Below are positions 1 to 35,008 of a stretch of DNA of 64,000 nucleotides, piece after piece. The position numbers and the translations under genes were made by a program. Source of the stretch: Lutibacter maritimus. GTDB taxonomy: Bacteria > Bacteroidota > Bacteroidia > Flavobacteriales > Flavobacteriaceae. The DNA lies in the NCBI RefSeq assembly GCF_900116115.1, contig NZ_FOZP01000003.1:1-64000 (forward strand), given 5' to 3'. The notes beneath the pieces were generated by a model. It was given only the letters and a program-made list of their open reading frames with translations. It was not told the DNA's origin and made no database searches. Each line of letters begins with the position of its first letter. Position 1 is the stretch's first letter.

Positions 1-663
1 TCTTACTTTTTCAATAATTTCCAAAGCACTTTTTACATCTTCTGTTAGCTTTGTATAATTTTTACTTGATAATATTTCTTTTGATATTAATTGTGATCCC
101 ATTCCAACACAAGTTACTCCTGCACTAAACCAGCTTTTTAGGTTTTCTTCTGTAGGTGAAACACCTCCTGTTGGCATTACACTCGTCCAAGGTTGTGGTC
201 CTTTTATTCCTTTTACAAATTGTGGTCCGTAAATATCTCCAGGGAATAATTTTACAATTTCACAGCCCAATTCTTCTGCTCTAGCAATTTCTGTTAATGT
301 TCCACAGCCTGGTGACCATAATACTTTGCGTCTATTACAAACTACTGCGATATCTTCTCTTAAAACAGGTGTTACTATAAAGTTTGCCCCTAAAGCCATA
401 TATAATGAAGCTGCGCCAGCATCGGTTACGGATCCAACTCCCATAATCATTCCTGGTAATTCTTTAATCGCATATTTGGTTAACTCTCCAAAAACTTCGT
501 GTGCAAAATCACCTCGTGCCGTAAATTCCATCAATCTTGCTCCGCCATCATAACATGCCTTTAATACTTGTTTACTTACTTCTAAATCATTACTGAAAAA
601 TAAAGGAATCATCCCTGTTTCTTTCATTGCTGTTGCAACTTCTATTCTTGTAAATTGTGCCAT
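1..663 (-). CDS. eda: 2-keto-3-deoxy-6-phosphogluconate (KDPG) aldolase, partial
   Basis: The enzyme splits KDPG into pyruvate and glyceraldehyde 3-phosphate, the last step of cytoplasmic uronate/KDG catabolism. The reading frame starts with ATG at 663 (MAQFTRIEVA) and stays open for 221 codons to the window edge. Family members are about 210-225 residues, so at most a few codons are missing. Seen: the Schiff-base lysine in VKLFPG (about K138), the catalytic Glu and substrate Arg in LMEFTARGD (E46, R50), GVGSVTDA and WSPGCGT. KDG kinase lies 109 bp upstream and glucuronate isomerase beyond it, so the three probably form one pathway operon. The family also includes 4-hydroxy-2-oxoglutarate aldolases; the neighbours favour KDPG. 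Confidence 0.93.
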   Translation of the reverse strand, partial: MAQFTRIEVATAMKETGMIPLFFSNDLEVSKQVLKACYDGGARLMEFTARGDFAHEVFGELTKYAIKELPGMIMGVGSVTDAGAASLYMALGANFIVTPVLREDIAVVCNRRKVLWSPGCGTLTEIARAEELGCEIVKLFPGDIYGPQFVKGIKGPQPWTSVMPTGGVSPTEENLKSWFSAGVTCVGMGSQLISKEILSSKNYTKLTEDVKSALEIIEKVR

Positions 664-772
664 TTTTTATTTATCTTTTTTTAATGAAGCTTTTCTTAAA
701 ATGGATTGTTGAGTCGTGTTTTCTACGACTCAACTTTCCGATTTAACCAAACTTAATTATAATACTTCTTTG

Positions 773-1813
773 TTATCGTGCTACTCTTCCTGAGGCATCA
801 CCACCCATTAATTTAGTTACTTCATCTACAGTTACTAAGTTGGCATCTCCTTTTATGGTGTGTTTTAAACAAGAGGCTGCTACTGCAAAGTCTAATGCGT
901 TTTGATCATCATCTGGATACGTTAATAATCCGTAAATCAATCCGCCCATAAAACTATCTCCACCTCCAACTCTATCTACAATATCAGTAATTTGATACTG
1001 ACGTGTTTGCAATAGTTGTTTTCCATCATATAAAACGCCGGCCCAAGTGTTATGAGATGCTGAAATTGAACCTCTTAACGTAGTAATTACTTTTTTAGCT
1101 CTTGGGAATTTCGCCATCATTTGCTGACAAACCGATAAAAACGCTTCTGCCTTTACATCATGTCCGTGTGTTTGAACTGCTGCTCCTTCTGGCTTAATGC
1201 CAAAGTGCATTTCTGCATCTTCTTCATTGCCTAAAATAACATCACAATACGATGTTAACTCGGTCATAATTGCTTCTCTATCTCCACCATATTTCCAAAG
1301 TTTTGCTCTATAGTTTAAATCTGTGGAAATGGTTAATCCTAATTTGCTGGCTGCTTTTACTGCCTCTAAACAAACATCCGCTGAACTTTGTGAAATTGCT
1401 GGAGTAATGCCTGTCCAATGAAACCACTCGGCTCCAGCAAAAACTTCCTCCCAATCTATCATGCCCAATTGAATTTCAGACATAGATGAATGTGCTCTAT
1501 CATACACAACTTTTGAACCTCTACTAACTGCGCCTGTCTCTAAAAAGTAAATTCCTAAACGATCTCCTCCCCAAACAATCTTATCTACTCCAACGCCTCT
1601 TTTACGCATTTCCATCATCGCACATTCTCCAATGTCATTTTTTGGTAAACGTGTTACAAAATCTACTGAAACACCATAGTTGGCTAAAGAAACTGCTACG
1701 TTTGATTCTCCGCCTCCATAAACAACATCAAAATTGTCCGCTTGTGAAAATCTTAAAAATCCTTGTGGTGATAATCGCAACATAATCTCACCAAATGTTA
1801 CTACTTTACTCAT
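773..1813 (-). CDS. kdgK: 2-dehydro-3-deoxygluconokinase (KDG kinase), PfkB family
   Basis: A ribokinase-fold sugar kinase that phosphorylates KDG with ATP to give KDPG, the substrate of the aldolase encoded just downstream. At 346 residues it has normal length. Seen: the N-terminal substrate loop GGGESNVAVSLANYG (33-47) and the C-terminal PfkB signature DRVGGGDSF (280-288), with the catalytic base at D286 and an anion hole GGG instead of the usual GAG. Other PfkB kinases are possible on sequence alone. The uxaC-kdgK-eda order makes KDG the likely substrate. Confidence 0.92.
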   Translation of the reverse strand: MSKVVTFGEIMLRLSPQGFLRFSQADNFDVVYGGGESNVAVSLANYGVSVDFVTRLPKNDIGECAMMEMRKRGVGVDKIVWGGDRLGIYFLETGAVSRGSKVVYDRAHSSMSEIQLGMIDWEEVFAGAEWFHWTGITPAISQSSADVCLEAVKAASKLGLTISTDLNYRAKLWKYGGDREAIMTELTSYCDVILGNEEDAEMHFGIKPEGAAVQTHGHDVKAEAFLSVCQQMMAKFPRAKKVITTLRGSISASHNTWAGVLYDGKQLLQTRQYQITDIVDRVGGGDSFMGGLIYGLLTYPDDDQNALDFAVAASCLKHTIKGDANLVTVDEVTKLMGGDASGRVAR

Positions 1814-1923
1814 TTGTATTTGTTTATAATATTATCAATTTTTAATTTAGAAAACATAAAATTACTTTAATGGATAATTGTAATTGTTCAAATTATGGTA
1901 GTTAATAATACAAAATGTTATAT

Positions 1924-3327
1924 TTAAAATTTGAAATATTCTTTTGCGTTGTTATAGCTTATATCTGTAACCATTTTACCAATCCATTCCATATCATTTG
2001 GTAATTCTCCTCTTTTAATTTCATCACCAAGAAGGTTACATAATATTCTTCTAAAATATTCATGTCTTGGAAAAGATAAGAAACTTCTAGAATCAGTTAA
2101 CATTCCTACAAAACAACTAATCAATCCCATGTTTGAAAGTGCATTTAGTTGTTTAGTCATTCCATCTTTTTGATCTAAAAACCACCATCCCGAACCATAT
2201 TGCACTTTTCCTTTTAAACTTCCATCATTAAAGTTGCCAATCATAGTTGCCATTACTTCATTGTCTGCTGGATTTAAGTTGTAAAGGATTGTTTTTGTTA
2301 ATTTATTTTTGCTGTCTAAAGCATTTAAAAACGATGATAATTTTTGGGCTTGTGAATAATCGCCAATAGAGTCCCAACCAGTATCTGGACCTAAAACTCT
2401 TAACATTCGTTCATTATTATTTCTTAACGCTCCTAAATGAAATTGTTGAACCCAACCAAATTCGTGATATGCTTCGGCTAAAAATAACAAAATAGCACTT
2501 TGAAATTTATACGCTTCTTCTGTTGATATTGTTTTATTGTTTCTTTTCTTTTGAAATATTGAATTAATTTCAGTTTCGGTAAAATTTTCAAAATAAATTT
2601 GATCTAAACCGTGATCGCACAATTTACAACCATTATCATTAAAATATTGAATTCTATTTTTTAAAGCATCACATAAATCTTGGTAAGTATTAATAGAGCA
2701 GTCTGCTGCATTTTCCAGAGCATTTAAATAGTCATTATAACCATCGTTTGCAATTAAAATTGCTTTATCAGGCCTAAATGCAGTGCTTACTTTTAGGTTC
2801 AGATTACTTTTTGCAATTTTTTGATGATGTTCTAAATTATCAATAGGATCTTCTGTTGTACAAACTAACTCCACATTTACTTTATGCAACAAGTTTTGAC
2901 AACTATATGCTTCTGTATTTAACTTCTCCTTTGTTTCTTGATAAATTTTTTCTGCTGAGTTTTCATTTAATAAATCATAAATATCAAAATAACGAGCTAA
3001 CTCTAAATGTGTCCAATGATATAAGGGATTTCTCATTGTATAAGGCACTGTTTTTGCCCAACTCATAAACTTATCTTTATCAGACGCATCTCCAGTAATA
3101 AAGTTTTCATTAATTCCCAAGGTTCTCATGGCTCTCCATTTGTAATGATCGCCATTTATCCAAACATTTGTAATGTTGCTAAAAATTTTATTTTCAGCTA
3201 TTTGCTGTGGAGGTAAATGATTATGATAATCTATAATAGGCATTTTACTTGCATACGTATGATAGAGTTCTTCAGCATATTTATTTTCAAGTAAAAAATT
3301 ATCGTGTATAAAATTTTTATCACTCAT
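1924..3327 (-). CDS. uxaC: Glucuronate isomerase (uronate isomerase)
   Basis: Interconverts D-glucuronate and D-fructuronate (or galacturonate and tagaturonate), the first step of the cytoplasmic hexuronate pathway. At 467 residues it has the full UxaC length, and belongs to the amidohydrolase-like TIM-barrel superfamily. The metal-binding HxH is visible near the N-terminus in IDYHNHLPP (H35, H37). Conserved blocks include GWVQQFHLGALRN, GWDSIGDYS and DSRSFLSFPRHEYFRR. It is the first gene of the uxaC-kdgK-eda set and follows a LacI-type palindrome about 150 bp upstream. The mannonate-oxidising steps (UxuB, UxuA) that would connect it to KDG are not in the window. Confidence 0.95.
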   Translation of the reverse strand: MSDKNFIHDNFLLENKYAEELYHTYASKMPIIDYHNHLPPQQIAENKIFSNITNVWINGDHYKWRAMRTLGINENFITGDASDKDKFMSWAKTVPYTMRNPLYHWTHLELARYFDIYDLLNENSAEKIYQETKEKLNTEAYSCQNLLHKVNVELVCTTEDPIDNLEHHQKIAKSNLNLKVSTAFRPDKAILIANDGYNDYLNALENAADCSINTYQDLCDALKNRIQYFNDNGCKLCDHGLDQIYFENFTETEINSIFQKKRNNKTISTEEAYKFQSAILLFLAEAYHEFGWVQQFHLGALRNNNERMLRVLGPDTGWDSIGDYSQAQKLSSFLNALDSKNKLTKTILYNLNPADNEVMATMIGNFNDGSLKGKVQYGSGWWFLDQKDGMTKQLNALSNMGLISCFVGMLTDSRSFLSFPRHEYFRRILCNLLGDEIKRGELPNDMEWIGKMVTDISYNNAKEYFKF

Positions 3328-4044: not shown

Positions 4045-6309
4045 TTACTTTAAACTAAATTCAACTTCCAGAAGCTCTACACTATTTGTTCCGACAAATA
4101 CTTTAAAATCGCCTATCTCAGCTTTAAATCTCATATCGTTTGTATAAAATGCTAAATCTTTTGAAGTTAATAAAAATGATATTTCTTTAGATTCCCCAAT
4201 TTTCAAAAAAACTTTTTCAAATCCTTTTAATTCTTTCACTGGTCTAGTAACACTTCCTACAATATCTTGAATATATAATTGCACAATCTCTTCACCATCA
4301 TATTTTCCAGTATTTGTAATTGTTACCCTAACCTCAATAGTTTCATTAAAATTAAACTCATTTTTATTAATTTTTAAGTCTGAATACTGAAATGACGTAT
4401 AACTTAAGCCATAACCAAATGGATATAATGGCGAATTAGGAGCATCTAAATATTTAGATCTAAATCGTTGTTCAGCTCCTTTAATTTTATAAGGTCTTCC
4501 AGTATTTTTATAGTTGTAATAAATAGGAATTTGTCCAACATTTCTAGGAAACGACATGGTAAGTTTCCCTGATGGATTGTACGCTCCAAAAAGCACATCC
4601 GCAATTGCTGCTCCGCCCATTGTTCCTGAAAACCAAGTTTCTATAATTGCATCCGTAACTTCGTTTTCATATTCTAATGTTAAAGGTCTACCATTCATTA
4701 AAATTAAAATAATTGGTTTCCCTGTTTTTTTAATTTCAGCTATTAGCTCTTTTTGCACACCTGGTACATCTAAATTAGTTCTACTTGCAGCTTCACCACT
4801 TAATCCGTGAGATTCTCCTAAAACCATTATTACAACATCTGATTCTTTAGCAATATTTACAGCTTCATTGAATTTTGATTTATCATTTCCTTCAATTTCA
4901 CAACCCTTTGCGTACTTAATAATTTCAGTATTCCCTAGTAAGTTTTCTATTCCTTCATAAACGCTAACAGCTTTACCAGTCCTATCTCCACGCGCTATCC
5001 AAGTTCCTAAAATATGACTTTCGTCTTTAACTAAAGGACCAATTAACGCTATTTTTTGATGCTTATTTAAAGGTAAAATATTGTTTTTATTTTTTAATAA
5101 GACAATAGATTTTTGAGCTAATTCTTTGGCTGTCTCTAAATATTCAGGTTTATAAAGCGTTACTTTTTCACGTTGTTCATTACTATACCTGTAAGGATCT
5201 TCAAACAGCCCTAAACGATATTTTAAAATTAAAATACGCCTTGCTGCAGCAGTTATTTTTTCTTCTGAAACTTTACCTTCTTCAACTAATTTTTTTAGAT
5301 TTCTTAAAAATATACCACCTTGCATATCCATATCAACTCCGGCATTTAACGCTTGTTCACCTGCCTGTTTTTCATCTTTAGAATACCCGTGAGGAATCAT
5401 TTCATTTATTGATGTATAATCAGTAACCACAAAACCATCAAAGTTCCATTCATTTCTTAAGATATCCGTCAATAAAAATTTATTTCCAGAAGCTGGAACT
5501 CCATTTAAATCATTAAAAGAAGTCATAAATGTTGTTACTCCTGCATCAATGGCAGCTTTAAATGGAGGTAAATAGGTTGTCCTTAATTCTCTTTCCGACA
5601 TATCTACTGTATTATAATCTCTTCCTGCAATCGCTGCTCCATAAGCTGCAAAATGTTTTGCACAAGCCAAAATTGTATTGTTTTTAGATAAATCATCACC
5701 TTGAAAACCTTTAACACGTGCTTTTGCAATTGCATTACCTAAAAAAACATCTTCCCCTGCTCCTTCTGAGACTCTTCCCCAACGAGGATCTCGAGAAATA
5801 TCAATCATTGGTGCAAACGTCCAGTGAAAACCTGAGGCCGAAGCTTCTTCTGCCGCAATCCTTGAACTCTTTTCAATTAAATCTAAATCCCAAGATGCTG
5901 ATTCTCCAAGTGAAATTGGAAATATAGTTTTGTATCCGTGAATAACATCATATCCAAATAATAATGGAATTCCTAATCTGGTTTCTTCAACTGCAATTTT
6001 TTGAAGTTCTATGGTAGCTTTTACAGTTGGCACACTAAATACAGCTCCAAGCATACCATCTTTTAAATAATCAACAAAATTTTTGTCTATAGTTGGCCCT
6101 GTAATGTCGGAGCCAGAAGAAAAGAGAACAGTTTGACCTATTTTTTCATCCAATGTCATTTTTTGGAGTAAACTATCAACAAAAATTATTGCTTTTGAGT
6201 TATTGGAACTTTTCTCTGGCTGCTCTTTATTTATAGTCATTTTAGTTGAACAAGAAGAAATTGATAGAAAAGATATCCATAAAATTATATTTGCTAGCTG
6301 TGTTTTCAT
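4045..6309 (-). CDS. bglX: Glycoside hydrolase family 3 beta-glucosidase, lipoprotein
   Basis: Cleaves terminal beta-linked glucose from oligosaccharides, acting on products of the neighbouring GH16 enzyme. It is 754 residues long, close to BglX-type enzymes. Seen: a lipoprotein signal with lipobox ending at C20 (LSISSC), so it is membrane-anchored on the periplasmic or outer-membrane side. The GH3 N-domain has RDPRWGRVSEGAGED and KHFAAYG, with the nucleophile D297 in FVVTDYTS. The GH3 C-domain has GESHGLSGEAASR, which supplies the likely acid/base Glu. A fibronectin-III-like domain ends the protein. It is the last gene of the glucan locus. Its stop abuts a fragment of a mobile-element gene. 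Confidence 0.93.
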   Translation of the reverse strand: MKTQLANIILWISFLSISSCSTKMTINKEQPEKSSNNSKAIIFVDSLLQKMTLDEKIGQTVLFSSGSDITGPTIDKNFVDYLKDGMLGAVFSVPTVKATIELQKIAVEETRLGIPLLFGYDVIHGYKTIFPISLGESASWDLDLIEKSSRIAAEEASASGFHWTFAPMIDISRDPRWGRVSEGAGEDVFLGNAIAKARVKGFQGDDLSKNNTILACAKHFAAYGAAIAGRDYNTVDMSERELRTTYLPPFKAAIDAGVTTFMTSFNDLNGVPASGNKFLLTDILRNEWNFDGFVVTDYTSINEMIPHGYSKDEKQAGEQALNAGVDMDMQGGIFLRNLKKLVEEGKVSEEKITAAARRILILKYRLGLFEDPYRYSNEQREKVTLYKPEYLETAKELAQKSIVLLKNKNNILPLNKHQKIALIGPLVKDESHILGTWIARGDRTGKAVSVYEGIENLLGNTEIIKYAKGCEIEGNDKSKFNEAVNIAKESDVVIMVLGESHGLSGEAASRTNLDVPGVQKELIAEIKKTGKPIILILMNGRPLTLEYENEVTDAIIETWFSGTMGGAAIADVLFGAYNPSGKLTMSFPRNVGQIPIYYNYKNTGRPYKIKGAEQRFRSKYLDAPNSPLYPFGYGLSYTSFQYSDLKINKNEFNFNETIEVRVTITNTGKYDGEEIVQLYIQDIVGSVTRPVKELKGFEKVFLKIGESKEISFLLTSKDLAFYTNDMRFKAEIGDFKVFVGTNSVELLEVEFSLK

Positions 6310-6511
6310 TTTTGAGTATTTACTTTTTAAAACTTATCTCGTCTAGTTTTATTGAATATTAAATTCGTTGATTGTCATATACATCCAAATTTCCATTTTA
6401 ACTTAAGGATTAAAGAATTGAAATTATTCTAGCATAAAAACCAAAAATGAATTCACATAAATACACAACAAATTCCACTTTTTTTTTGACATAAAGAATG
6501 TGTTTTTTATA

Positions 6512-7348
6512 TTATTTATATCTCAATTTTACGAATACAGGCAAGTGATCTGATGGGTATTTTAAGTTTTTAGAATCGCTTAAAATTGCATATTTGTCAA
6601 CTACTATTTTATTGTTTTTTGAAATAAAAATATAGTCAATTAATTGTGTCACCGGTTCATTGTGTTTAAAACCATTAAAAGTTCCTGAAGGGCCAAAAGG
6701 TTTTTCTCTTGAAACTTCCCTACAATCATTCATTTCTTTTTTTAGATTTATAATTCTTTCAGTAGTTGGTTCAGAATTGAAATCGCCCATAAATATTACG
6801 GGGTAATTTTTTGTGTTAAGAATTTTAATTTTTGACAGAATTAATTCAATACCTTTAGTTCTCGCTTCTTCTCCAATATGATCTAAGTGTGTATTGAAAA
6901 CCCATATTTTATGTTTTGTTTTTTTATCTTTCAACAAAGCATAGGAACAAACTCTGTTATATGCAGCGTCCCAACCTTTTGAAATTTCATCAGGTGTTTC
7001 AGAAAGCCAAAAAGTAGCTGTTTCTTTAACAATAAATCGATTTTTTTTATAATAAATATTTGAGGATTCTCCTTTACCATCACCATCTCTTCCAACACCA
7101 ACTTGATTGTATTGAGGAAGTAATACTGACATTTCAGTAACCTGAAGAGGAGTTGCTTCTTGAACACCTAAAATATCAGGTTCATAAAACTGTATTTGTG
7201 ATGTTAAAAATTCCTTTCTTAATGGCCAAGCGTTTTCGCCATCAACTTCAACATTTAAACGGACGTTATAGGTCATTGCTTTAAAAGTCTGGGCATATGA
7301 GTTGATACACAATCCAATAAATAGTAATAAAATAACTAATTTTTTCAT
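6512..7348 (-). CDS. Secreted endonuclease/exonuclease/phosphatase-fold hydrolase
   Basis: A 278-residue exported enzyme of the DNase I-like/EEP superfamily, whose members cleave phosphodiesters in nucleic acids, lipids or sugars. The start is taken at the second Met (MKKLVILLLF, 7348): it opens with a clean signal peptide ending around SYAQ and begins directly after the stop of the upstream gene. The motifs are complete: MTYNVRLN, GVQEAT, the catalytic His in NTHLDH, GDFNSEP and SDHLPV. EEP proteins of this type often sit in Bacteroidota glycan loci with unknown substrates. Its pairing with a GDPD domain suggests a phosphodiester substituent on the glycan or a phospholipid substrate. Confidence 0.85.
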   Translation of the reverse strand: MKKLVILLLFIGLCINSYAQTFKAMTYNVRLNVEVDGENAWPLRKEFLTSQIQFYEPDILGVQEATPLQVTEMSVLLPQYNQVGVGRDGDGKGESSNIYYKKNRFIVKETATFWLSETPDEISKGWDAAYNRVCSYALLKDKKTKHKIWVFNTHLDHIGEEARTKGIELILSKIKILNTKNYPVIFMGDFNSEPTTERIINLKKEMNDCREVSREKPFGPSGTFNGFKHNEPVTQLIDYIFISKNNKIVVDKYAILSDSKNLKYPSDHLPVFVKLRYK

Positions 7349-7349
7349 C

Positions 7350-8924
7350 CTAATTTTTAATTGTTGGTTTCTGGTATATTCTAACATAATCTACTAACAT
7401 TTCGGAAGGGAAAATTGTATCATCAATATCACCTCCCCAATTTCCACCAATGGCAAGATTTAATATTAAAAAATAAGGTTTATCAAAAGGCCAACCTTCG
7501 TTCGTAGAAATCATTCCATTTTCTCCTTTTTTAGCTTCAAAAAATAATTTATTATCTATATAAAACTTGATAAATTCAGGTGTCCATTCTATTCCATATA
7601 AGTGAAAGTTATTAAAAACATCAGGAATTCTATCAAAATGTGTTATTTGAGTATTCTTTATATGATTGTATTCTTTGGAATGTAGTGAAACATGCACCAT
7701 ATTTGGGTCTTTTCCAACATGTTCCATAATATCAATTTCACCACACAAAGGCCAAGCCTCTTCTTTTTTACGAAGACTTTCTGGTAGCATCCAAATTGCT
7801 GGCCAAGTTCCTTTTCCTTTAGGTAATTTTGCCATTACTTCAATTTTTCCGTATTGCAAAACAAACCTATTATAAGTTGTTAACCTTGCTGAAGTATAAT
7901 GTCTATTTTCAATGTCTTTTTTTAAAGCTACAATATGTAATTTCCCATTTTTAACAAATGAATTATCTAAAGATTTTTCCAAATAGAACTGTTTTTCATT
8001 ATTACCAAACCCCTGACCTCCATATTTATAATTCCATTTTAATGAATCTGGCAAACCCTCATTATTAAATTCATCAGACCAAATTAACTTATAATCTTTA
8101 TAAGTAGTTAACCGATTTTTAAACATTTTTAATAATAATTCTGGTTCATCAGTAGTAATAAAATCAAAATTATTAGCTAATAACCAATCCATATCGGCAA
8201 CATTATTTACTGTCCAAGCATTTAAAGTAAAATCAGATGCTTTAGTGCTTTCAATGGATTTTAAATTGTTTTTATAATTATTATAGTAGTAATCAATACC
8301 ACTAATACCATCTTTTTTTAATTGCTCAATTGATTTATTGCTTTCTAAGTATTGGGTTAAAGCTGCTGGTTCTAATTGTATTATTTTTTTTAGTATATCA
8401 TAATCAAAACTTATATATACTACCAAATCTTTTGCTTTTAGTGCTTCAACCATTTGAACTACTTTAGTTGCTATAAGCTGTCCTCTTTCCTTACTTATTT
8501 TTGAAGGTTTTATCTCACAAAACAATCTAGTGGTGGCATTGTTTTTAATCCCAGCCAAAAGATATTCTTTTAAAGTTGGGAGCTTTTCTCCATTGAATAA
8601 TTTAAAAGCAGCTAATTCTGAATAGTTGGTTTTTTCAATTTCTAAATTATTATATTGTGGGTCATGCGTTACAATTAGCACGTTATCTGCAGTCATTCTA
8701 ACATCAAATTCTGAACCTGAACAGTTTAATTGAATTGCTTCCTTAAGTGAAGCTATTGAATTTTGAGGAAGATTTTTATTTTTCCAAGCACCTCTATGCG
8801 CTACAACTTTGTTATTTACAAAATTAACATTGCTTTGTAAATTAATATTAGTTGAGTTACAACCTAAAATAAATGCAAAAGTTGCTATTAATAAACCTGT
8901 GGATATTTTTTTAATTTTTCCCAT
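7350..8924 (-). CDS. GDPD-GH16 fusion lipoprotein (glycerophosphodiesterase domain plus laminarinase-like domain)
   Basis: A 524-residue lipoprotein (lipobox Cys at C22 in FILGCN) with two catalytic domains. Residues about 38-275 are a glycerophosphodiester phosphodiesterase domain with an apparently complete active site: HRGA (H43), the acidic pair in GSEFDV, THDP, and EIKP; it ends with NAWTVN and TTDEPE. Residues about 285-520 are a GH16 domain with the E-x-D-x-x-E catalytic motif GEIDIMEHVG (E396, D398, E401), as in beta-1,3-glucanases. It lies between susD and the EEP hydrolase, in the same direction. The GH16 part probably makes the endo cuts in the imported glucan. The role of the GDPD part is unknown; removal of glycerophosphate groups is an inference. 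Confidence 0.9.
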   Translation of the reverse strand: MGKIKKISTGLLIATFAFILGCNSTNINLQSNVNFVNNKVVAHRGAWKNKNLPQNSIASLKEAIQLNCSGSEFDVRMTADNVLIVTHDPQYNNLEIEKTNYSELAAFKLFNGEKLPTLKEYLLAGIKNNATTRLFCEIKPSKISKERGQLIATKVVQMVEALKAKDLVVYISFDYDILKKIIQLEPAALTQYLESNKSIEQLKKDGISGIDYYYNNYKNNLKSIESTKASDFTLNAWTVNNVADMDWLLANNFDFITTDEPELLLKMFKNRLTTYKDYKLIWSDEFNNEGLPDSLKWNYKYGGQGFGNNEKQFYLEKSLDNSFVKNGKLHIVALKKDIENRHYTSARLTTYNRFVLQYGKIEVMAKLPKGKGTWPAIWMLPESLRKKEEAWPLCGEIDIMEHVGKDPNMVHVSLHSKEYNHIKNTQITHFDRIPDVFNNFHLYGIEWTPEFIKFYIDNKLFFEAKKGENGMISTNEGWPFDKPYFLILNLAIGGNWGGDIDDTIFPSEMLVDYVRIYQKPTIKN

Positions 8925-9053
8925 TTTAAATACTATATATTTTAAAAGTTGCTTCTGAATTTTCTAAAAAAACAGAAGCAACAATAAAACTAAACTTAAT
9001 TAATAGATAAAAACACTTAATTATACTTGGATAATTAACTTAACTATGATTAT

Positions 9054-10583
9054 TTATTTTAGCACCCACATTATTTTATTAATCTCATCATAACCTTGGT
9101 ATTGATTATCTAATGCTATTATTAAATTTTCTCTATTCACTGAGTTTTCTGAACTAGGGTAAGTCCAACGCATAGGAATTCCTGATAAATTTTCCGTATT
9201 TAAGCTAGTTGCAGCATTTATTGGAAAAACTGGATAACTATTTCTACGATATTCAAAAAAGCTTGATTCTGCTTCTTGCATAAAATTAAGAATATAACGT
9301 TGCATCCAAATTTGTTTCAACTGGTCTGCAGAAGTAGTTTTAAATGCTGCTTCTCCAGTAAAATATGCATTGATATAGGCTGCTGTAATTGCTTTTCCGT
9401 GAGCAAAACTTGAAGTTACTGCCATCATATCTGTTAAAGCGGCTTTTACTCCATTTTCATAATGTGTTTGGGCTGAACCTGATATCCAACCACGAATTAC
9501 AGCTTCTGCAAGAATAAGTTCTTGTTCTGCATACGTCATTTTTCTTAAAGGTTCTGTAGCATCTTGAGTTAAGAAACGCTTGTTAATTAAAGAATATACT
9601 CCTGCACTATGATTTAAATTCATTTGAGAATAATCCATTTCTACATCAACTCCAACATAAGCTTCAGCATCTGACATTAATTTTCCTGCTGTTATTTGTG
9701 CAACAGCTGGTTCTCCAAAATAAAATAAACGATAATCATTTAATGATTTTAAATTATTAACTAATAATGAACTTAAAATAGTTTTTGAAGTGAATAAATC
9801 AGATGTTCCAGAAATTGGATGTTTATTAGTTGCAGAATAGTTTAAACCATAAAAACCAGTACCAGCATCCATTAAATTACCAGCAGCAACAATTGCTGCA
9901 AATCTATTTTTTATATCTAATGATGTAACGGTTTCCTTTTTACTTAAGCTCATTAATACCTTTAAAGCAAAAGCATTAGTTGCTTTACGCCATTTTTCTG
10001 GATTTCCGTTATAAGGTGTTGGATCACCAGTAAATGTTATTCCATTTGCAAAAAATTGATCTGCCTCAACTAAATCATTTAAAACACCTATTAAAACAGA
10101 TTCTTGAGAATCATATTTTGGTTTATATATCCCTTCTTGACCTAAATTAGCTTCAGAATAAGGTATATCTCCCATTTCCATTGTAAGGTTATAGAACATG
10201 ATTGCTCTTGCAAATTTACCAACTCCTTTATAAGAGTTTTCCATAGTACTTCCAGTTGCATATTCAACCATTCTATCAATATTAGGAAGTATTGTCATAG
10301 CATCAAAACTACTACCGCCTATTAAATTATACTGAGAAGCTAATTGTCCTTCATTTGCATAACCTACATATTTAGGTAGGGCGTTGTCAGAAATCATTGC
10401 TTTTGCATCTCTTCCTCCAAATTTTGTAACTCGCAATACTACATTTGTACATAACATAGCCGCATTTCCTTCTGTAGTTGCATCTGGATTATCATTCAGA
10501 TCGTCAAAGTTACTGCAGCTGCCAACCATCACCAATATTATTATAATGGTTATTGTTGTTATAAGTTTTTTTATTGTTTTCAT
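9054..10583 (-). CDS. SusD/RagB-family nutrient-binding outer membrane lipoprotein
   Basis: The surface glycan-binding lid that pairs with the SusC channel. It is 509 residues long, with a lipobox at MVGSC (C23) followed by SNFDDLNDNPDATTE, a start typical of the shorter SusD-like_2 group. It begins 26 bp after the SusC gene, so the two are co-transcribed. The TPR-like helices and ligand-binding region are not separable by eye. A gap of 129 bp separates it from the GDPD-GH16 gene downstream. Confidence 0.92.
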   Translation of the reverse strand: MKTIKKLITTITIIIILVMVGSCSNFDDLNDNPDATTEGNAAMLCTNVVLRVTKFGGRDAKAMISDNALPKYVGYANEGQLASQYNLIGGSSFDAMTILPNIDRMVEYATGSTMENSYKGVGKFARAIMFYNLTMEMGDIPYSEANLGQEGIYKPKYDSQESVLIGVLNDLVEADQFFANGITFTGDPTPYNGNPEKWRKATNAFALKVLMSLSKKETVTSLDIKNRFAAIVAAGNLMDAGTGFYGLNYSATNKHPISGTSDLFTSKTILSSLLVNNLKSLNDYRLFYFGEPAVAQITAGKLMSDAEAYVGVDVEMDYSQMNLNHSAGVYSLINKRFLTQDATEPLRKMTYAEQELILAEAVIRGWISGSAQTHYENGVKAALTDMMAVTSSFAHGKAITAAYINAYFTGEAAFKTTSADQLKQIWMQRYILNFMQEAESSFFEYRRNSYPVFPINAATSLNTENLSGIPMRWTYPSSENSVNRENLIIALDNQYQGYDEINKIMWVLK

Positions 10584-10609
10584 TTTTTTAAAATTTCTTA
10601 GTTAATAAA

Positions 10610-13600
10610 TTAAAAATCAAGTTTTAAATTAAACCCTAAATATCTTTGAGAAGGATCACTAAAATCATCACTTCCACCATCTGGATCAGAGTATTTAAAA
10701 TCTTTAGCCCATAATAACAGGTTTTGTCCTATTGCAGAAACCGAAATATTTTTAGCGTTTAACTTATTTGTAACATCTTTTGGCAACACATAAGTAATAG
10801 ACATTTCTCTCATTTTAAAGAATGTAGTGCTATAAGTATCTACAGGAGAAGGTGATCCGCCCCAAGCTGTACCTTTATGATATTTACTAATATAATTTTT
10901 ATAAGTTACAGCAACATCATTTGGTGCGTAGGTACGTGTATCTGTAACTATGTTTCCGTAAGTATCAAAAGTAACATCTCCTGAAACTATTTTAACACCT
11001 TGACCTACATAATTGCTAGTACCAGGTTGTGTTGCATCTAACATTCTTTCTGGCACTACTGAATCTGGGTGAGATCCTGAAATCCACATATACATTTCTG
11101 TACCTGTTTGAGCTAATCCTCCTACTCGACCATCAAAAGAAACTTGTAACATCCAATTTTTATACTTTAAACTTGAGTTAAGTCCCCAAATCCAATCTGG
11201 ATCATAGTTTCCAAATTTAGATCCAAATTTTGAATATTGTGGTAAACCATTACTGTGTATTATATTACCCTCAGAATCTTTTAAATAATCATTAATTATA
11301 TAATGATCAACTCTACTTCCTTCTTTTACCCAAGGTTGGTCTGTAGAAAACTCATCATCTAATTTTGTATAATAACGTGCATATTTAGACCAGTTTAAAT
11401 TTAAATCCCATTGCCAGTCTTCTGTTTTAAATGGTGTAACATCAACAGAAACTTCTATACCTTTTCTAGTAATTTCTTCATCAATATTTACATAGTTAGA
11501 ATAATATCCAGATGCTGGGCTAATTGTAGTTGATTTTAAGAAATCATACATTCTTTTGTTGTAATAAGATACATCTAAAGCTGCTCTTTTTTTGAAAAAC
11601 TTCATTGCTGTACCAATTTCAAATGTTGATGAAGATTCTGCTCTTAAATCAGCTCCACGAATTGAACCAGGATACGATGCTGATGTTAAACTACCCCAAG
11701 CATTTGGTGTAATTGAATAAGCCGTATTAATGTCGTAAATACCAGCTGGTTTTTTAGCTGTAGTTTGTGATGCTCTAATTTTCCAGAATGATAACCAATC
11801 AGATTTTGGCAATAACTCTGAAGCTACAAAACTTGCAGAAAAAGATGGATATAGGTAAGATCTATTATCTTTTGATAGCGTTGAAGTCCAGTCATTACGC
11901 AATGTAGTTTCAGCAAATGCAATACCTTTATAAGAAACTCCAAAACGACCATATAAACTGTTTACTTGTTGTTTATGTATTCTTGAATTAACATACACTG
12001 GAAGTACTGATGCTTTTAAAGAATAAAAACCTGGTATTGAAAGACCTCCTTTAGTTAAAGACTCTAAACCTTCATCTTGATTATAAGAAATTGATCCTCC
12101 AAAAAGTCCATCAACCGTAAAATCATTTACTTTTTTATTAAAAATAAACATTAAATCTTCATTTAAACTATACCCTCTTGCAATCCCTTTATTAAAAGAA
12201 CCTTTTCTAGATTCTCCCCAAATTTCTGTCCCTCCATCAATAACTTTTGCGGTACCTGCTCCTTGAAATGAACCCATAGAAACTGTTACTTCTTGTACAT
12301 TACTATATGTATCAAACCCAACACGATTGGTAAGTTTTAACCACGAATTGATATCATAATTCACTGAAAGCATACCATTTAAAATATCTTTATTGGCACT
12401 TCTTGTTCTTTCATTTCTATCAAAGTAAGGGTTGTTAGCACCTGCTGTATAACTACTATTTTGTACTTCATTTTTAACCAACCAATAATCTTTGTAATCT
12501 CTTACATCCCAATCTCCAGTTCCCCAAATAAGCATACTATACATTGGATCATAAGCTCTATAACCATTAAATCCTAAGTTTGGTGAAGTTTGTTTACTAT
12601 AAGACATGGTAGAAGAAAGACTAAATTTATCTGCCTTCATTTCTCCTCCTATACTATATGAGTATTTGTTAAATTTAGAATTTGGATATTGACCAACATT
12701 ATCAACTTTTGTGGCAGAAATACGAAAACTTCCATTTTCGCCTTGTTGTAAAACACTTATACTATTATTTAAGATATAACCTTGTTCAAGAAAATTATTA
12801 AAATTATCTTTTCCTATTGGTAAATAAGGCATTGGTACAAGTGTTTTTGAAATAGGATCCCATTGAATTACTTCTCGTCCATCCATTGGCACACCCCAAG
12901 ATCCATTTGCAGATCTATCGTAAGTGTTTGTAGCTGAACTAACGGTTCTACCAAATGTAGATTGTAATTCTGGAATTGCTAAGTAACCTGCGGTAAACAT
13001 AGACCCACTATTAATTGAAACTGACAAACCGCTTTTTCCACTTTTTTTAGTTGTAATTAAAATTGCACCTCCTTGACCTCTAAAACCATAAAGTGCCGAG
13101 GCTGTAGCTCCTTTAAGAACACTCATAGATTCTATATCATCTGCAGCAACATCTCTAAGTGTCATATTTTGATATGGGACTCCATCAATTACTAAAAGTG
13201 GATTTTCTCCACGAATTTGAATATCTGGTGCAGCACCAAACTCTGTACTGTTAAGCACTTTTAAACCAGAAATCTTACCAGTAAGTGAAGTTCCAACATC
13301 TACACCTCTTACAGTTTGTAGGCTTTCTCCAACTACTTTTTGAACCGCATAACCTAATGCTTTTTCCTCTCTTTTTATACCTAATGCAGTTACAACTACC
13401 TCATTTAATGTTTGAGTGTCTTCTGTAAGAATAATATTTAAATTATCAGCATTGTTGATAACTATTTCTATTGTTTTATATCCTATAAAAGAGAAAACCA
13501 ACTTTTCTCCTTTTTGAATATTTGACAACGTAAATTTACCTTCAAAATCTGTAGTTGTTCCTTTTGTTGTATTTTTTACAACAATAGAAACTCCAGGTAA

Positions 13601-13735
13601 AGGAATTTCATTAGCGTCAATAACGGTTCCGTTAATTTCTATGGTTTGCGCCGTAACGACGAAAATACCTAAGAATAAAAAAAGTGAGAAAAGTAATCTG
13701 ACTTTTTTAGTGAATAGTCTAAATTTCATAAACAT
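10610..13735 (-). CDS. SusC/RagA-family TonB-dependent outer membrane transporter
   Basis: Imports oligosaccharides across the outer membrane using TonB energy. It is 1041 residues long. Seen: a signal peptide (VRLLFSLFLFLGIFVVTAQ), then a carboxypeptidase-regulatory-like domain (INGTVIDANEIPLPGVSI ... GKFTLSN, about 33-110), the SusC-type signature NEVVVTALGIKREEKALGYA, the plug (about 120-230, IRGENPLLVIDGVPYQN) and a long beta-barrel ending in an aromatic-rich strand (YLGFNLKLDF). The alternative start at MKFRLF, two codons in, is equally plausible. It is the first gene of the glucan operon, with a Bacteroidota-type promoter upstream. Confidence 0.95.
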   Translation of the reverse strand: MFMKFRLFTKKVRLLFSLFLFLGIFVVTAQTIEINGTVIDANEIPLPGVSIVVKNTTKGTTTDFEGKFTLSNIQKGEKLVFSFIGYKTIEIVINNADNLNIILTEDTQTLNEVVVTALGIKREEKALGYAVQKVVGESLQTVRGVDVGTSLTGKISGLKVLNSTEFGAAPDIQIRGENPLLVIDGVPYQNMTLRDVAADDIESMSVLKGATASALYGFRGQGGAILITTKKSGKSGLSVSINSGSMFTAGYLAIPELQSTFGRTVSSATNTYDRSANGSWGVPMDGREVIQWDPISKTLVPMPYLPIGKDNFNNFLEQGYILNNSISVLQQGENGSFRISATKVDNVGQYPNSKFNKYSYSIGGEMKADKFSLSSTMSYSKQTSPNLGFNGYRAYDPMYSMLIWGTGDWDVRDYKDYWLVKNEVQNSSYTAGANNPYFDRNERTRSANKDILNGMLSVNYDINSWLKLTNRVGFDTYSNVQEVTVSMGSFQGAGTAKVIDGGTEIWGESRKGSFNKGIARGYSLNEDLMFIFNKKVNDFTVDGLFGGSISYNQDEGLESLTKGGLSIPGFYSLKASVLPVYVNSRIHKQQVNSLYGRFGVSYKGIAFAETTLRNDWTSTLSKDNRSYLYPSFSASFVASELLPKSDWLSFWKIRASQTTAKKPAGIYDINTAYSITPNAWGSLTSASYPGSIRGADLRAESSSTFEIGTAMKFFKKRAALDVSYYNKRMYDFLKSTTISPASGYYSNYVNIDEEITRKGIEVSVDVTPFKTEDWQWDLNLNWSKYARYYTKLDDEFSTDQPWVKEGSRVDHYIINDYLKDSEGNIIHSNGLPQYSKFGSKFGNYDPDWIWGLNSSLKYKNWMLQVSFDGRVGGLAQTGTEMYMWISGSHPDSVVPERMLDATQPGTSNYVGQGVKIVSGDVTFDTYGNIVTDTRTYAPNDVAVTYKNYISKYHKGTAWGGSPSPVDTYSTTFFKMREMSITYVLPKDVTNKLNAKNISVSAIGQNLLLWAKDFKYSDPDGGSDDFSDPSQRYLGFNLKLDF

Positions 13736-13827
13736 TTGAGTTAAGTTATAATTTTGTTTGATTATATCTATTGGATGAATCCAAAAAGAATAATATTAAA
13801 ATTAAACATTATTCTCACTGTTATATA

Positions 13828-13856
13828 AAAGTATACCACAACAAAAAACAGACAAA
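13828..13856 (-). promoter_or_regulatory. Putative Bacteroidota-type promoter for susC
   Basis: On the minus strand TTTG (13856-13853) is followed after 17 bases by TATACTTT (13835-13828). This fits the -33 TTTG / -7 TAnnTTTG consensus of Bacteroidota housekeeping promoters in its key positions, apart from the last base of the -7 box. The box lies about 93 bp upstream of the SusC start. The remainder of 13736-14023 is AT-rich with no gene. Confidence 0.45.
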
Positions 13857-14023
13857 CTCATTCAATTGTTAAAATTTTTAAATATTCATTACTGAAACGT
13901 TAATAATATTAGGTTTAGGGAAATTAAATATGTTTTAATGTTGTAGGTTAATTATAGTTATTTATCTAATTAAAACGTTTGCGTTGTGGTAATGTCGTAG
14001 TAAAAATAATATACGATGTAATG

Positions 14024-16792
14024 TTATATGTTTAAGATGTAGCTAACTAAACAAGTATCATGAGGTAAACCCATTTGTTTTCTTAATCTGTAGCGTTTTG
14101 TTTCAACACTTCTTACAGTCATGTTGAGTAATGGTGAAATTTCTTTTGAAGTTAAGTTTAAACGTAAATATGCACAAAAACGCAAATCGTTAGGAGTTAA
14201 GTTTGGGTGTAATTCTTTAATCTTATCTAAAAAATATTTATCTGCATTATTAAAAGCTTCTTTAAAAACATCCCAGTCTTTTGAGTTATTTAAATTCCCA
14301 TCAATTAATTTTAATACTTGTAAATTATTTGAATTAATATTATTCGTTTTTAATTCATTCTTTATACTATTTAGTACTTCATTTTTATTAATAATACTCA
14401 TTGTAGAAATTGCCAACTCCCTATTTTTATTTTCAATATCTTGGTTCAACTTTTCATTTTTCATTCTAATAATTAATTGCTCACTTTCTAGTTGTTTATG
14501 AGCTAGCTGATTTTTATAATGCCTTAAATGTGCCTTATGTAATAAAAATGTACATATAAAAAACACAAGGCAATAAATGAATATTGCAAAATATGAAAAA
14601 TACCAAGGCTTTAAAATTTGAAAATGATATGTAGCAATATTACTTGTGAGTTCATTTCCTAATTTTCCTCTAACACTAAAAGTATAATCTCCAAATGCTA
14701 AATTGTCAAAAGTTAATATAGTTTGGTTACTCCAATCGCTCCATTTATTATAATAGCCTTCCAATTTGTATTGATAGGTTACTGATTGGTATTTATCAAA
14801 AACCGGGACACTAAATTTAAAAACAATTGAGTTTTGATCAAATGTAAACTCTCCATTATTACTCAAATTCACTAATGATTTATTTGACTCCCTATTTTTT
14901 GTTGAAATTTCATTAATAAAAATTAAACTTTCTTTTCGAGTTTCAAAATTTTCAAGATCTAAAGTAATATAACCATTTGAAGTACCTAGTAAATATTTGT
15001 TGTCTTTGTATAATGAAATATTTTCGTATCCACTTATACCTTTTCTAAGAGATGCAGGAATATCTATTGTATGTATATTAAATTCTTTTGTTAAATCATT
15101 TATTGTTGCGTAGTTAATACTTTCTTTAGAGAAACCCCATAATTTTTGACTTTTATCAACAATTAATTTTCCAGATAAAAAAGTTTCAGTTTTAATTATA
15201 GGACTTAAAATAGTGTCTATTAAAAATTTATCTGTTGTTAAATCATATTTATAAATTCCTTTATTATTAGCGTAAAAAATAGAATTATTGAATTTTATTA
15301 AACTAGAGTTTTTTCCAATAGAAACATCGTTTTGTTTTGAAATTTTGGTAAATTTTTCAAAACTTTTATCAATATTAAGTTTAAATACCCCCTTATATCC
15401 GTGACTTACAAATAACTCATTACTATTAATAAATTCAAAATATCTTGCAGAATTATCAAACCCAACTATTTTATTTTCTAAAACCCATTTCCCATTTTTA
15501 TTAATCAATACATAAAAACCACTATAATTACCTTGCAATAATCTATTTTTTGAATCAGGAATTTTTCTAAAACTCCAGGTGCCCGATATATCACTTATTT
15601 TTATGGCTTTATTTTCATCAATTAAAAAAGTACCTAAATGATGCCCGCAAAATAACTCTTTATCATTTTCAAATAAATCCCAAACCTGACCAGCGGTTCC
15701 TGCAATAATTTTAAAGGTTTCATTAGAGTTTATTTTTTTGCAAAACAATCCTTGATTGGTTCCTAAATAAATATAATTATTAAAAACAATTGAAGTATAA
15801 ACAGTTCCTAAAAAACCGTCGTCATCATTAAAAACATTTACAGGAGATTTTATGTTAATACAATTAATTCCATTGTCTAAACCTACCCAAATATTCTCAT
15901 CACTATCTTCAAAAAGTGAGAGTGCCGTGTTATTGCTTAATCCATTTTTCTGATTTAATTGGTATTGTATTTCACCTTCTTTTGATAAAAAAATAATTCC
16001 ATTTGAAATTGTTCCTAAAACAAAACTTTTGTCTTTTAGCTGAATGCTATTGTATATTTTAATACCATCTAATTCATTCAATTCAGAGCCTTTCCACTTT
16101 TGAAGCTTCCCTTCTTTAAAAATATAAAAACCTGAATTTCTTGTTTGAATAAGGAGCCCTTCATCAATTGAAAATACATTAATTAAAATATTGACATCTA
16201 ATATTGAATTATTTACAATTAATTTTGACTTACCTTCTTTGATTTTAAACAAGCCTTCATTATTAACAAAATAATAGATTTCATTATTATTGTTAAATAC
16301 CTTAGAAATTGAATTTTTAGAATTTATAATTGTGAACTTACCTTTTGCCGGATTATAAAAATAAATCCTATTAAATGACTGAAAAATTATCCAATCTTGA
16401 TAGGTAATAATATTCCATATATTCTCATCTTCAATCATTTTTTCATTTAGCTTAGGCACCAAAGAATTATAATTCAACATTCCAAATGAGTCTTTTTCCC
16501 AATACCCAAATTCCATATAAGATCCCGTATATATTTTATTATCAACAACTTTTACAGCTCTTATTATAGTGTTATTTGGTGAAGAATATATTTTCCATGT
16601 GGCACCATTATATTCTAATAAACCTTCATTATTTGCTATATAAATAAACTTATTTGAAGCTTGTGAAATCATCCAATTCTGATTTTCACCTCCATATACT
16701 TCAGGTGTAAATATTTGTATAGATGGTAATTCTTGGGCGTTTAAAGAGCAAGAAATTAGAAAAATAAAAAAAACTTCTTTTAAATATCTCAC
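14024..16792 (-). CDS. Membrane sensor-regulator: beta-propeller, Y_Y_Y domain, TM, LuxR-type HTH
   Basis: Probable transcriptional activator of the glucan locus. It is 922 residues long. Seen: a signal peptide (MRYLKEVFFIFLISCSLNAQ), a long periplasmic domain with repeated propeller-type blades (for example LFEDSDENIWVGLDNGI), a Y_Y_Y-type domain at about 655-715 (YQYKLEGYYNKWSDWS), one membrane segment near 727-750, a coiled region rich in Glu/Lys/Asn, and a C-terminal LuxR-like helix-turn-helix (LTPNDLRFCAYLRLNLTSKE and beyond). It lacks histidine kinase and receiver domains, unlike hybrid two-component systems, so sensing and DNA binding would be linked directly through the membrane. It lies 289 bp upstream of susC and is transcribed the same way. 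Confidence 0.88.
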   Translation of the reverse strand: MRYLKEVFFIFLISCSLNAQELPSIQIFTPEVYGGENQNWMISQASNKFIYIANNEGLLEYNGATWKIYSSPNNTIIRAVKVVDNKIYTGSYMEFGYWEKDSFGMLNYNSLVPKLNEKMIEDENIWNIITYQDWIIFQSFNRIYFYNPAKGKFTIINSKNSISKVFNNNNEIYYFVNNEGLFKIKEGKSKLIVNNSILDVNILINVFSIDEGLLIQTRNSGFYIFKEGKLQKWKGSELNELDGIKIYNSIQLKDKSFVLGTISNGIIFLSKEGEIQYQLNQKNGLSNNTALSLFEDSDENIWVGLDNGINCINIKSPVNVFNDDDGFLGTVYTSIVFNNYIYLGTNQGLFCKKINSNETFKIIAGTAGQVWDLFENDKELFCGHHLGTFLIDENKAIKISDISGTWSFRKIPDSKNRLLQGNYSGFYVLINKNGKWVLENKIVGFDNSARYFEFINSNELFVSHGYKGVFKLNIDKSFEKFTKISKQNDVSIGKNSSLIKFNNSIFYANNKGIYKYDLTTDKFLIDTILSPIIKTETFLSGKLIVDKSQKLWGFSKESINYATINDLTKEFNIHTIDIPASLRKGISGYENISLYKDNKYLLGTSNGYITLDLENFETRKESLIFINEISTKNRESNKSLVNLSNNGEFTFDQNSIVFKFSVPVFDKYQSVTYQYKLEGYYNKWSDWSNQTILTFDNLAFGDYTFSVRGKLGNELTSNIATYHFQILKPWYFSYFAIFIYCLVFFICTFLLHKAHLRHYKNQLAHKQLESEQLIIRMKNEKLNQDIENKNRELAISTMSIINKNEVLNSIKNELKTNNINSNNLQVLKLIDGNLNNSKDWDVFKEAFNNADKYFLDKIKELHPNLTPNDLRFCAYLRLNLTSKEISPLLNMTVRSVETKRYRLRKQMGLPHDTCLVSYILNI

Positions 16793-34722: not shown

Positions 34723-35008
34723 TGGTTCTCGATATTATTTTTGTTCCTTTTCAATTCACAAAAATCACTCGAACTGACGGGAAATTATGTGTTTTTATAA
34801 GGTTTCTTGTGTTTTAGGTTCGTACTAATAATTAATTTGTTCTCGATATAATTTTATTTTAGTTATACAATAAACAGATTGCTTCCCTGTGGTCGCAATG
34901 ATGTTTTTACTTAGCTCAATGCTGGCTGTTGCATATGGTTCTCGATATTATTTTTGTTCCTTTTCAATTCACAAAAACACTCGAACTGCCGGGGAATTAT
35001 GTGTTTTC
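34723..35008. repeat. Tandem copies of the restriction gene 3' end and dispersed repeat (non-coding gap 34600-34996)
   Basis: A block of about 73 bp (TGGTTCTCGATATTATTTTT and on to GAATTATGTGTTTT) occurs at 34723-34797 and at 34936-35008, the second copy running into the last codons of the restriction enzyme gene. A partial third copy is near 34830. Between them lies a dispersed repeat at 34875-34903 (GATTGCTTCCCTGTGGTCGC). The gap also holds the promoter of the toxin operon, not identified. Confidence 0.6.

Follow-up and report, generated by a model that had tools for sequence, protein, structure and literature searches.

The locus raises the question of why a glycerophosphodiesterase (GDPD) domain should be fused to a GH16 glucanase inside a SusCD operon. 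Within the window, by which we mean the whole stretch of 64,000 nucleotides from Lutibacter maritimus that was analysed, the open reading frame list and profile searches place on the minus strand (4045-16792) a regulator, SusC, SusD, the GDPD-GH16 fusion, an EEP-fold hydrolase (EEP) and a GH3 enzyme, in this order (Table 1). SusC and SusD are adjacent and share their strand with glycan enzymes, which makes this a SusCD utilization locus, and the combination of SusCD, a laminarinase-type GH16 and a GH3 is the gene set of a laminarin utilization locus, to which the EEP is an extra; none of the seven window proteins scanned with Pfam matched the PF10091 glucanase. The analysis presented here suggests that the locus probably serves a beta-glucan decorated with phosphodiesters.

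Table 1. Features of the operon, with their positions in the window and the basis on which each was assigned.
Feature	Position	Strand	Basis
Regulator with Reg_prop/Y_Y_Y region	14024..16792	-	Profile search
SusC/RagA TonB-dependent transporter	10610..13735	-	Profile search
SusD-like protein	9054..10583	-	PF12771
GDPD-GH16 fusion lipoprotein, 524 aa	7350..8924	-	ORF, Pfam, crystal-structure match, AlphaFold model
GDPD domain, aa 31-272: H43, R44, E72, D74, H87, E137, K139	8109..8834	-	Pfam, alignment
GH16 domain, aa 276-519: EIDIME 396-401, Trp 374 and 391	7368..8099	-	Pfam, alignment
EEP-fold hydrolase, signal peptide (by eye), probably phosphatase	6512..7387	-	Pfam Exo_endo_phos, model
GH3, score above the BglX (beta-glucosidase) cut-off; N-terminus lipoprotein-like (by eye)	4045..6309	-	Profile search

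The complete order from regulator to GH3 recurs in L035-L038, L040 and L041; L034 shows it too, except that a sulfatase-type gene is inserted before GH3. In the nearest relative of the window locus, L052, a PhoD-like gene separates EEP from GH3. A relative of the regulator lies upstream of SusC in many related loci and in control loci too, so that the regulator is not specific to fusion loci. Just downstream of the GH3 gene (1-3327, minus strand) are a glucuronate isomerase, found by profile search, and a KDG kinase and a KDPG aldolase, recognised by eye. The same genome holds, about 300 kb away, a second SusCD locus with a GH16 and two GH30-type genes (L109, G000:C9:298000-317900), which looks like an ordinary beta-glucan locus. 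Elsewhere on the minus strand of the window, inspection by eye identified a 1460-residue frame joining an RND metal efflux pump to an outer-membrane factor (28297-32679), and a restriction-modification enzyme and a phage-type integrase (34997-38173 and 53073-54335) with metal efflux genes around them, a region that is perhaps an integrated element.

The initial annotation had described a single lipoprotein with apparently intact GDPD and GH16 sites, and this description holds. The 524-residue frame, behind a lipobox cysteine identified by eye (Cys22), contains both Pfam domains with their catalytic residues: GDPD (PF03009) at residues 43-262, with 82.2 bits against a cut-off of 23.6 and covering positions 1-243 of the 244 in the profile, and GH16 at residues 311-499, with 85.4 bits against a cut-off of 22. 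H43, R44, E72, D74, H87, E137 and K139 are invariant in all 25 aligned GDPD domains; we take H43 and H87 to be the catalytic histidines and E72, D74 and E137 to be the metal-binding acidic residues, and judged by its sequence the domain retains both its catalytic and its metal residues. In the GH16 half, EIDIME provides the catalytic motif E-x-D-x-x-E, and E396, D398 and E401 are invariant in 20 of 20 aligned fusions, as are W374 and W391. A Trp pair around the third finger is given as a mark of beta-1,3-glucanases in an excerpt of the relevant literature (PMC11345257), and on its residues the GH16 half is laminarinase-like. The structure prediction that the initial annotation had called for returned an AlphaFold model (pLDDT 86.5, pTM 0.81) in which the two predicted domains are arranged as in the crystal structures 7WW4/7WWC.

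These two PDB entries match the fusion nearly end to end (E 1e-160) and represent the same two-domain protein, so the fusion itself is not new. According to part of a published account, 7WW4/7WWC are a multidomain beta-1,3(4)-glucanase of Pedobacter terrae, and its authors found no publication accompanying 7WWC (PMC12448869); the PDB title of 7WWC names a complex with laminaritriose. In L119 and L120, whose fusions are by eye similar to these structures, nothing within about 10 kb matches SusC, SusD or EEP. In addition, a passage of PMC4666044 lists four Sphingobacterium proteins classed as GH16 of which the best match is named glycerophosphodiester phosphodiesterase, which suggests the fusion there as well. 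Our literature search for GDPD in glucan loci yielded only this paper and the mention of 7WWC, from a body of work that included few subscription journals, so that absence is weak evidence; PMC8871858 proved unrelated.

The initial annotation had also proposed a domain search for the same fusion and its neighbours. This search recovered full-length fusions in 26 loci of Bacteroidota, the window included, 19 of them with an EEP directly downstream, and given these 26 proteins and one crystal structure the fusion is no chance or frame artefact. It was found in 11 of the 299 genomes of the family set and in 10 of the 38 genomes of the window's genus, two of which were already in the family set; at the level of the phylum, the GDPD profile matched 43 of 395 genomes at E 1e-40 and five further fused proteins were obtained, and a scan of genome contigs added L055 and L056 as well as L058, where the fusion is cut at the contig end. 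On a tree of 47 GDPD domains the fused state requires 8 changes, at least 5 of them on well-supported branches. On a tree of 101 GH16 domains the fused proteins fall into three clades, and the unfused GH16 neighbours of GDPD in L043 and L045 fall into a fourth; a single clade for all fused GH16s was rejected (AU p 4e-8), and therefore this GDPD type has either joined GH16 on several occasions or exchanged partners. In L042 (8825-10486) GDPD and GH16 are two frames in the same phase, separated by one stop codon, and adjoin GlpK-GlpF at a housekeeping site that is conserved in other respects. Several loci of the window's GH16 clade also hold GH30 genes, and the fusion in L118 adjoins a GH88 gene.

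The enzyme that follows the fusion is probably of a different kind than had been proposed. Its more likely start is the ATG at 7348, 1 nt past the fusion's stop codon (7350-7352). The model of the protein (pLDDT 86.0) has as its nearest structures 3mpr and the mannosyl-6-phosphatase BT3783, and against the latter (PDB 4c1r) we obtained 36% identity and TM scores of 0.81/0.88; the active-site residues N41, E77, H167, D202, N204, D251 and H281 are present and invariant in 18 of 18 sequences, which gives the EEP both the fold and the active-site motif of a 4c1r-type sugar phosphatase. Sequence and model thus make a phosphomonoesterase more likely than a diesterase. An EEP-fold hydrolase with a Pfam Exo_endo_phos domain does stand after the fusion, as the initial annotation had stated, but its label as a phosphodiesterase, and with it the argument from two phosphodiesterase-type activities, became doubtful because the closest characterised relative is a monoesterase. 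The counting of EEPs directly downstream (19 of 26 loci, that is, 18 of 25 by script plus the window) drops L058 and scores L055, at a contig end, neither way; the six fusions without an adjacent EEP are those of L056, L067 and L117-L120. Among unfused GH16 frames, 8 of the 85 in all annotated loci, which are not a random sample, are directly followed by an EEP; one (L043) lies beside a GDPD, and the other seven (L057, L061, L066, L072, L159, L161, L162) have no GDPD nearby. With these seven pairs, and with relatives at E 1e-40 in 118 of the 299 family genomes, the EEP was rejected as a strict partner of GDPD; its association seems to be with certain GH16 groups, whether these are fused or not.

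A second line of evidence comes from glycerol-use genes. Among the 12 genomes with a GDPD locus, a glpK and a long contig, 9 have glpK-glpF within 15 kb of the GDPD gene (G070, G133, G134, G209, G119, G125, G244, G157 and G225), in at least three kinds of arrangement and with glpD in all but G225. The 12 leave out G047 (contig of 7.9 kb) and G181, G173 and G153 (no glpK at E 1e-100), and include G225 although it has no SusCD near. GDPD matches outside the SusCD-GDPD arrangement (G289, G080, G297, G094, G127, G269 and G180) stayed out of the count; among them, G094 has glpK about 11 kb from its match and G127 has its GDPD in a SusCD-PF10091 locus. As controls we took 40 GH16 stretches of about 20 kb each from the upper part of the family match list, with entries skipped, and left out the GDPD-only match L115; three genomes of the resulting 39 controls (G000, G134, G125) are also in the GDPD set, with other loci. 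Twenty-five of the 39 control genomes have glpK, in no case within 30 kb of the GH16 gene, and the contrast of 9/12 with 0/25 gives a Fisher p of 1.8e-6, which overstates the case because the nine linked genomes partly share ancestry. These distances, like the genus counts given below, were read by eye from tables.

In G070 one strand carries SusC-SusD-fusion-EEP-sulfatase type-GH3-GlpD-GlpK-GlpF, where GlpK scores above the curated glycerol kinase cut-off, GlpD has glycerol-3-phosphate dehydrogenases as its best models, at scores below the cut-off, and GlpF, a MIP channel above the subfamily cut-off, is a putative glycerol facilitator. GlpD-GlpK-GlpF lies just upstream of the regulator in G134, G209, G119, G125, G244 and G157, and in G133 it comes after GH3, GH31 and two esterase-type genes, all on one strand. 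In G225, GlpK-GlpF adjoins GDPD and GH16; glpKF is also found amid housekeeping genes where this GDPD locus is lacking, and the G225 pair has the same neighbourhood, matching that of L171, where glpKF is present and a GDPD of this type is not, so that in G225 the GDPD-GH16 pair was added to an old glp site. In G289 and G080 (L046:9563-10345 and L048:9611-10420) a G225-type site holds a GDPD of this type by itself, without glpKF. Within the window's own GH16 clade a linkage is suggested only in G047, of the window's genus, and there across two contigs: the contig with the fusion stops after EEP, and a second one, which is probably the remainder of the operon, carries GH36, two SASA esterases, a PhoD-like gene, GlpD, GlpK, GlpF and a GH3 in two frames (78% and 88% identical to the window GH3). 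The window's genome has glpDKF on another contig, with a glpK of another lineage (64%), and the remaining glpKs of the genus likewise belong to the 62-66% lineage and lie on contigs other than that of the fusion. Across the 38 genomes of the genus, glpK is present in 9 of 10 with the fusion versus 6 of 28 without; family-wide the co-occurrence is weak (8/11 versus 123/288, p 0.06). Exclusivity of the linked glpK lineage to GDPD loci was considered and rejected.

The same GDPD type also occurs, unfused, in SusCD loci with another glucanase. In L049 and L121-L124 it lies beside SusC, SusD, PF10091, GH3 and a GH43-type gene, with an esterase gene also present in L121-L124, and in L125 it lies beside SusC, SusD, a Laminin_G-like gene and PF10091. 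The PF10091 assignment rests on Pfam runs for L121 and L125 and on blastp (59-82%) for the other loci, NCBIfam giving the proteins no name, and these loci count as two lineages because L049 and L121-L124 belong to one genus. We take PF10091 to denote the GH144 endo-beta-1,2-glucanase type. The periplasmic glucans of E. coli, as summarised in part of a review, have a beta-1,2 backbone and bear phosphoglycerol derived from phosphatidylglycerol as well as succinyl groups (PMC3818809), and a GDPD and an esterase beside a PF10091 glucanase fit such a substrate.

We therefore favour, at a probability of about one half, the reading that the window encodes a SusCD operon for a beta-1,3-linked (probably beta-1,3/1,6) glucan with glycerophosphoryl phosphodiester groups, although no glycerophosphate-bearing beta-1,3-glucan was evident in the literature searched. 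A beta-glucan with phosphodiesters had been suggested by the initial annotation, and the suggestion is partly supported: its argument from two phosphodiesterases is doubtful, but it has gained independent genomic support, short of proof, from the conserved GDPD residues, the glp linkage in 9 of 12 genomes, the PF10091 loci and the contrast with the controls. Starting from the observed gene order, catalytic residues, two-domain fold, recurrent pairing and glp linkage in relatives, we infer a route whose substrate, order of steps, EEP substrate and periplasmic location are our proposal. SusCD would import short charged glucans, the GDPD half of the lipoprotein would take off glycerol phosphate and the GH16 half would cut the backbone once bared; the EEP may then dephosphorylate the freed glycerol phosphate (or leftover phosphomonoesters), GH3 would take the oligosaccharides to glucose, and glycerol could enter through GlpF to be used by GlpK and GlpD.

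Glycerol phosphate of the sn-1 form would not be expected to serve GlpD. According to excerpts of PMC7086022, B. subtilis GlpQ, like its orthologues in E. coli and S. aureus, acts strictly on sn-glycerol-3-phosphoryl groups, and the free head group of phosphatidylglycerol is sn-glycerol-1-phosphoryl. A periplasmic-glucan source therefore predicts a GDPD that prefers sn-1, a phosphatase and uptake as glycerol, a route that EEP, the PhoD-like gene, GlpF and GlpK would fit; phosphatase, GlpF and GlpK would be needed if the glycerophosphate derives from phosphatidylglycerol, and such genes lie beside several related loci. If the reading is right, this is a way for bacteria to obtain carbon along with phosphate from charged glucans, and there should be a natural glycerophosphate-bearing beta-1,3/1,6-glucan to look for. 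More tentatively, one might see in these loci a Bacteroidota family that strips glycerophosphate from decorated bacterial or algal beta-glucans by means of a GDPD lineage repeatedly paired with GH16 clades and PF10091, in which case the window would imply an undescribed glycerophosphate beta-1,3/1,6-glucan.

The strongest competing explanation, which we nevertheless regard as unlikely, is that the locus is of the laminarin type and that its GDPD salvages phosphate and glycerol from the head groups of phospholipids (e.g. glycerophosphocholine) which the same lysed algae release, so that the fusion would act on two unrelated substrates. The laminarinase-like GH16 and the laminaritriose of 7WWC agree with this, and GlpQ acts on diesters of this sort in the part of PMC7086022 cited. 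In the same direction, a phospholipase-C-like gene directly follows the fusion in L119 (6440-8875; PF04185, PF05506) and, 80% identical, in L120 (11014-13416), which keeps phospholipid head groups or another phosphodiester in play. The controls speak against it. About two thirds of these 39 GH16 loci have SusC or SusD (SusC 24, SusD_RagB 26, window-type SusD-like 1), 22 have GH3 and four have GH30, yet EEP, GlpF and GlpD are absent from all 39, which otherwise contain one FGGY kinase at 25% identity and one distant GDPD at 25%; because the controls were chosen as lacking the close GDPD type, the information here lies in the EEP and glp counts alone. Scavenging also leaves unexplained why GDPD occurs in PF10091 loci and has paired with GH16 repeatedly, and the window's genome has another beta-glucan locus.

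It is improbable that the target is a glycerophosphate polymer or capsule that has a beta-glucosidic part and is either teichoic-acid-like or a bacterial polysaccharide bearing glycerophosphoryl groups. The association of GDPD with a PhoD-like gene and glycerol catabolism does recall GlpQ and PhoD, which a passage of PMC7086022 implicates in the breakdown of wall teichoic acid, and L050 is a SusCD-GDPD-EEP locus beside glpDKF with no GH16 in 20 kb, but such a polymer has no need for an endo-beta-1,3-glucanase fused to GDPD, nor does it agree with the GH30 genes in several loci of the window's GH16 clade. We give equally little credence to a beta-1,3/1,6-glucan from fungi, oomycetes or algae that carries phosphodiesters of another kind or phosphomonoesters (GPI remnants, phosphomannan links, Phytophthora phosphoglucans). 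The existence of Phytophthora phosphoglucans is indicated by a title in the reference list of PMC5618555, and BT3783 as nearest characterised relative of the EEP, together with GH30 and GH2 genes in several related loci, would suit such a target; it does not predict the glycerol kinase, facilitator and dehydrogenase or the PF10091 loci, and no GH38, GH76 or GH92 model was found among the scanned neighbours, which are part of all neighbours. A Gln (Gln54) in place of the Glu of the usual PEN motif would favour a GDPD domain that has lost catalysis, or that serves GH16 for binding or as a spacer. This is very improbable: the position is E, Q or K in relatives, Q in PDB 3no3 and variable in stand-alone GDPD relatives too, the catalytic and metal residues are invariant in 25 of 25 domains, and there is the glp linkage.

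One neighbour sits uneasily with a glucan carrying glycerophosphate, the reading we prefer: a conserved CSPSR sulfatase-family protein occurs in or near seven loci (L034:6575-8053, L139:9905-11386, L140, L142, L143, L144 and L156), and glycerophosphate offers no explanation for it.

Set beside known systems, the window shares SusC, SusD, GH3 and a GH16 with the Trp pair with the laminarin utilization loci of marine Flavobacteriia (GH16_3, GH3, SusCD), and, on the side of the differences, EEP, GlpF and GlpD are absent from the 39 control GH16 loci (picked as lacking the close GDPD type). With the PF10091 SusCD loci it has the GDPD type in common; there GDPD is unfused, whereas the window has GH16 and no PF10091 gene. 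We know of no GH16 enzyme for which the beta-1,2 backbone of E. coli-type periplasmic glucans is a substrate, and beta-1,3/1,6 periplasmic glucans bear phosphocholine and are not known to bear glycerophosphate. The candidate substrate class is that of the osmoregulated periplasmic glucans of Proteobacteria, which part of the review cited above describes as glucose oligomers with phosphoglycerol and succinyl groups, built in E. coli on a beta-1,2 backbone with beta-1,6 branches (PMC3818809). The closest counterpart of the fusion is 7WW4/7WWC, with the same GDPD-GH16 order, 51% identity, TM scores of 0.87/0.95 and an rmsd of 2.0 over 490 columns. The EEP, finally, shares its fold with the mannosyl-6-phosphatase BT3783 (PDB 4c1r), which works in the context of yeast mannan, whereas the context of the window enzyme is a beta-glucan.
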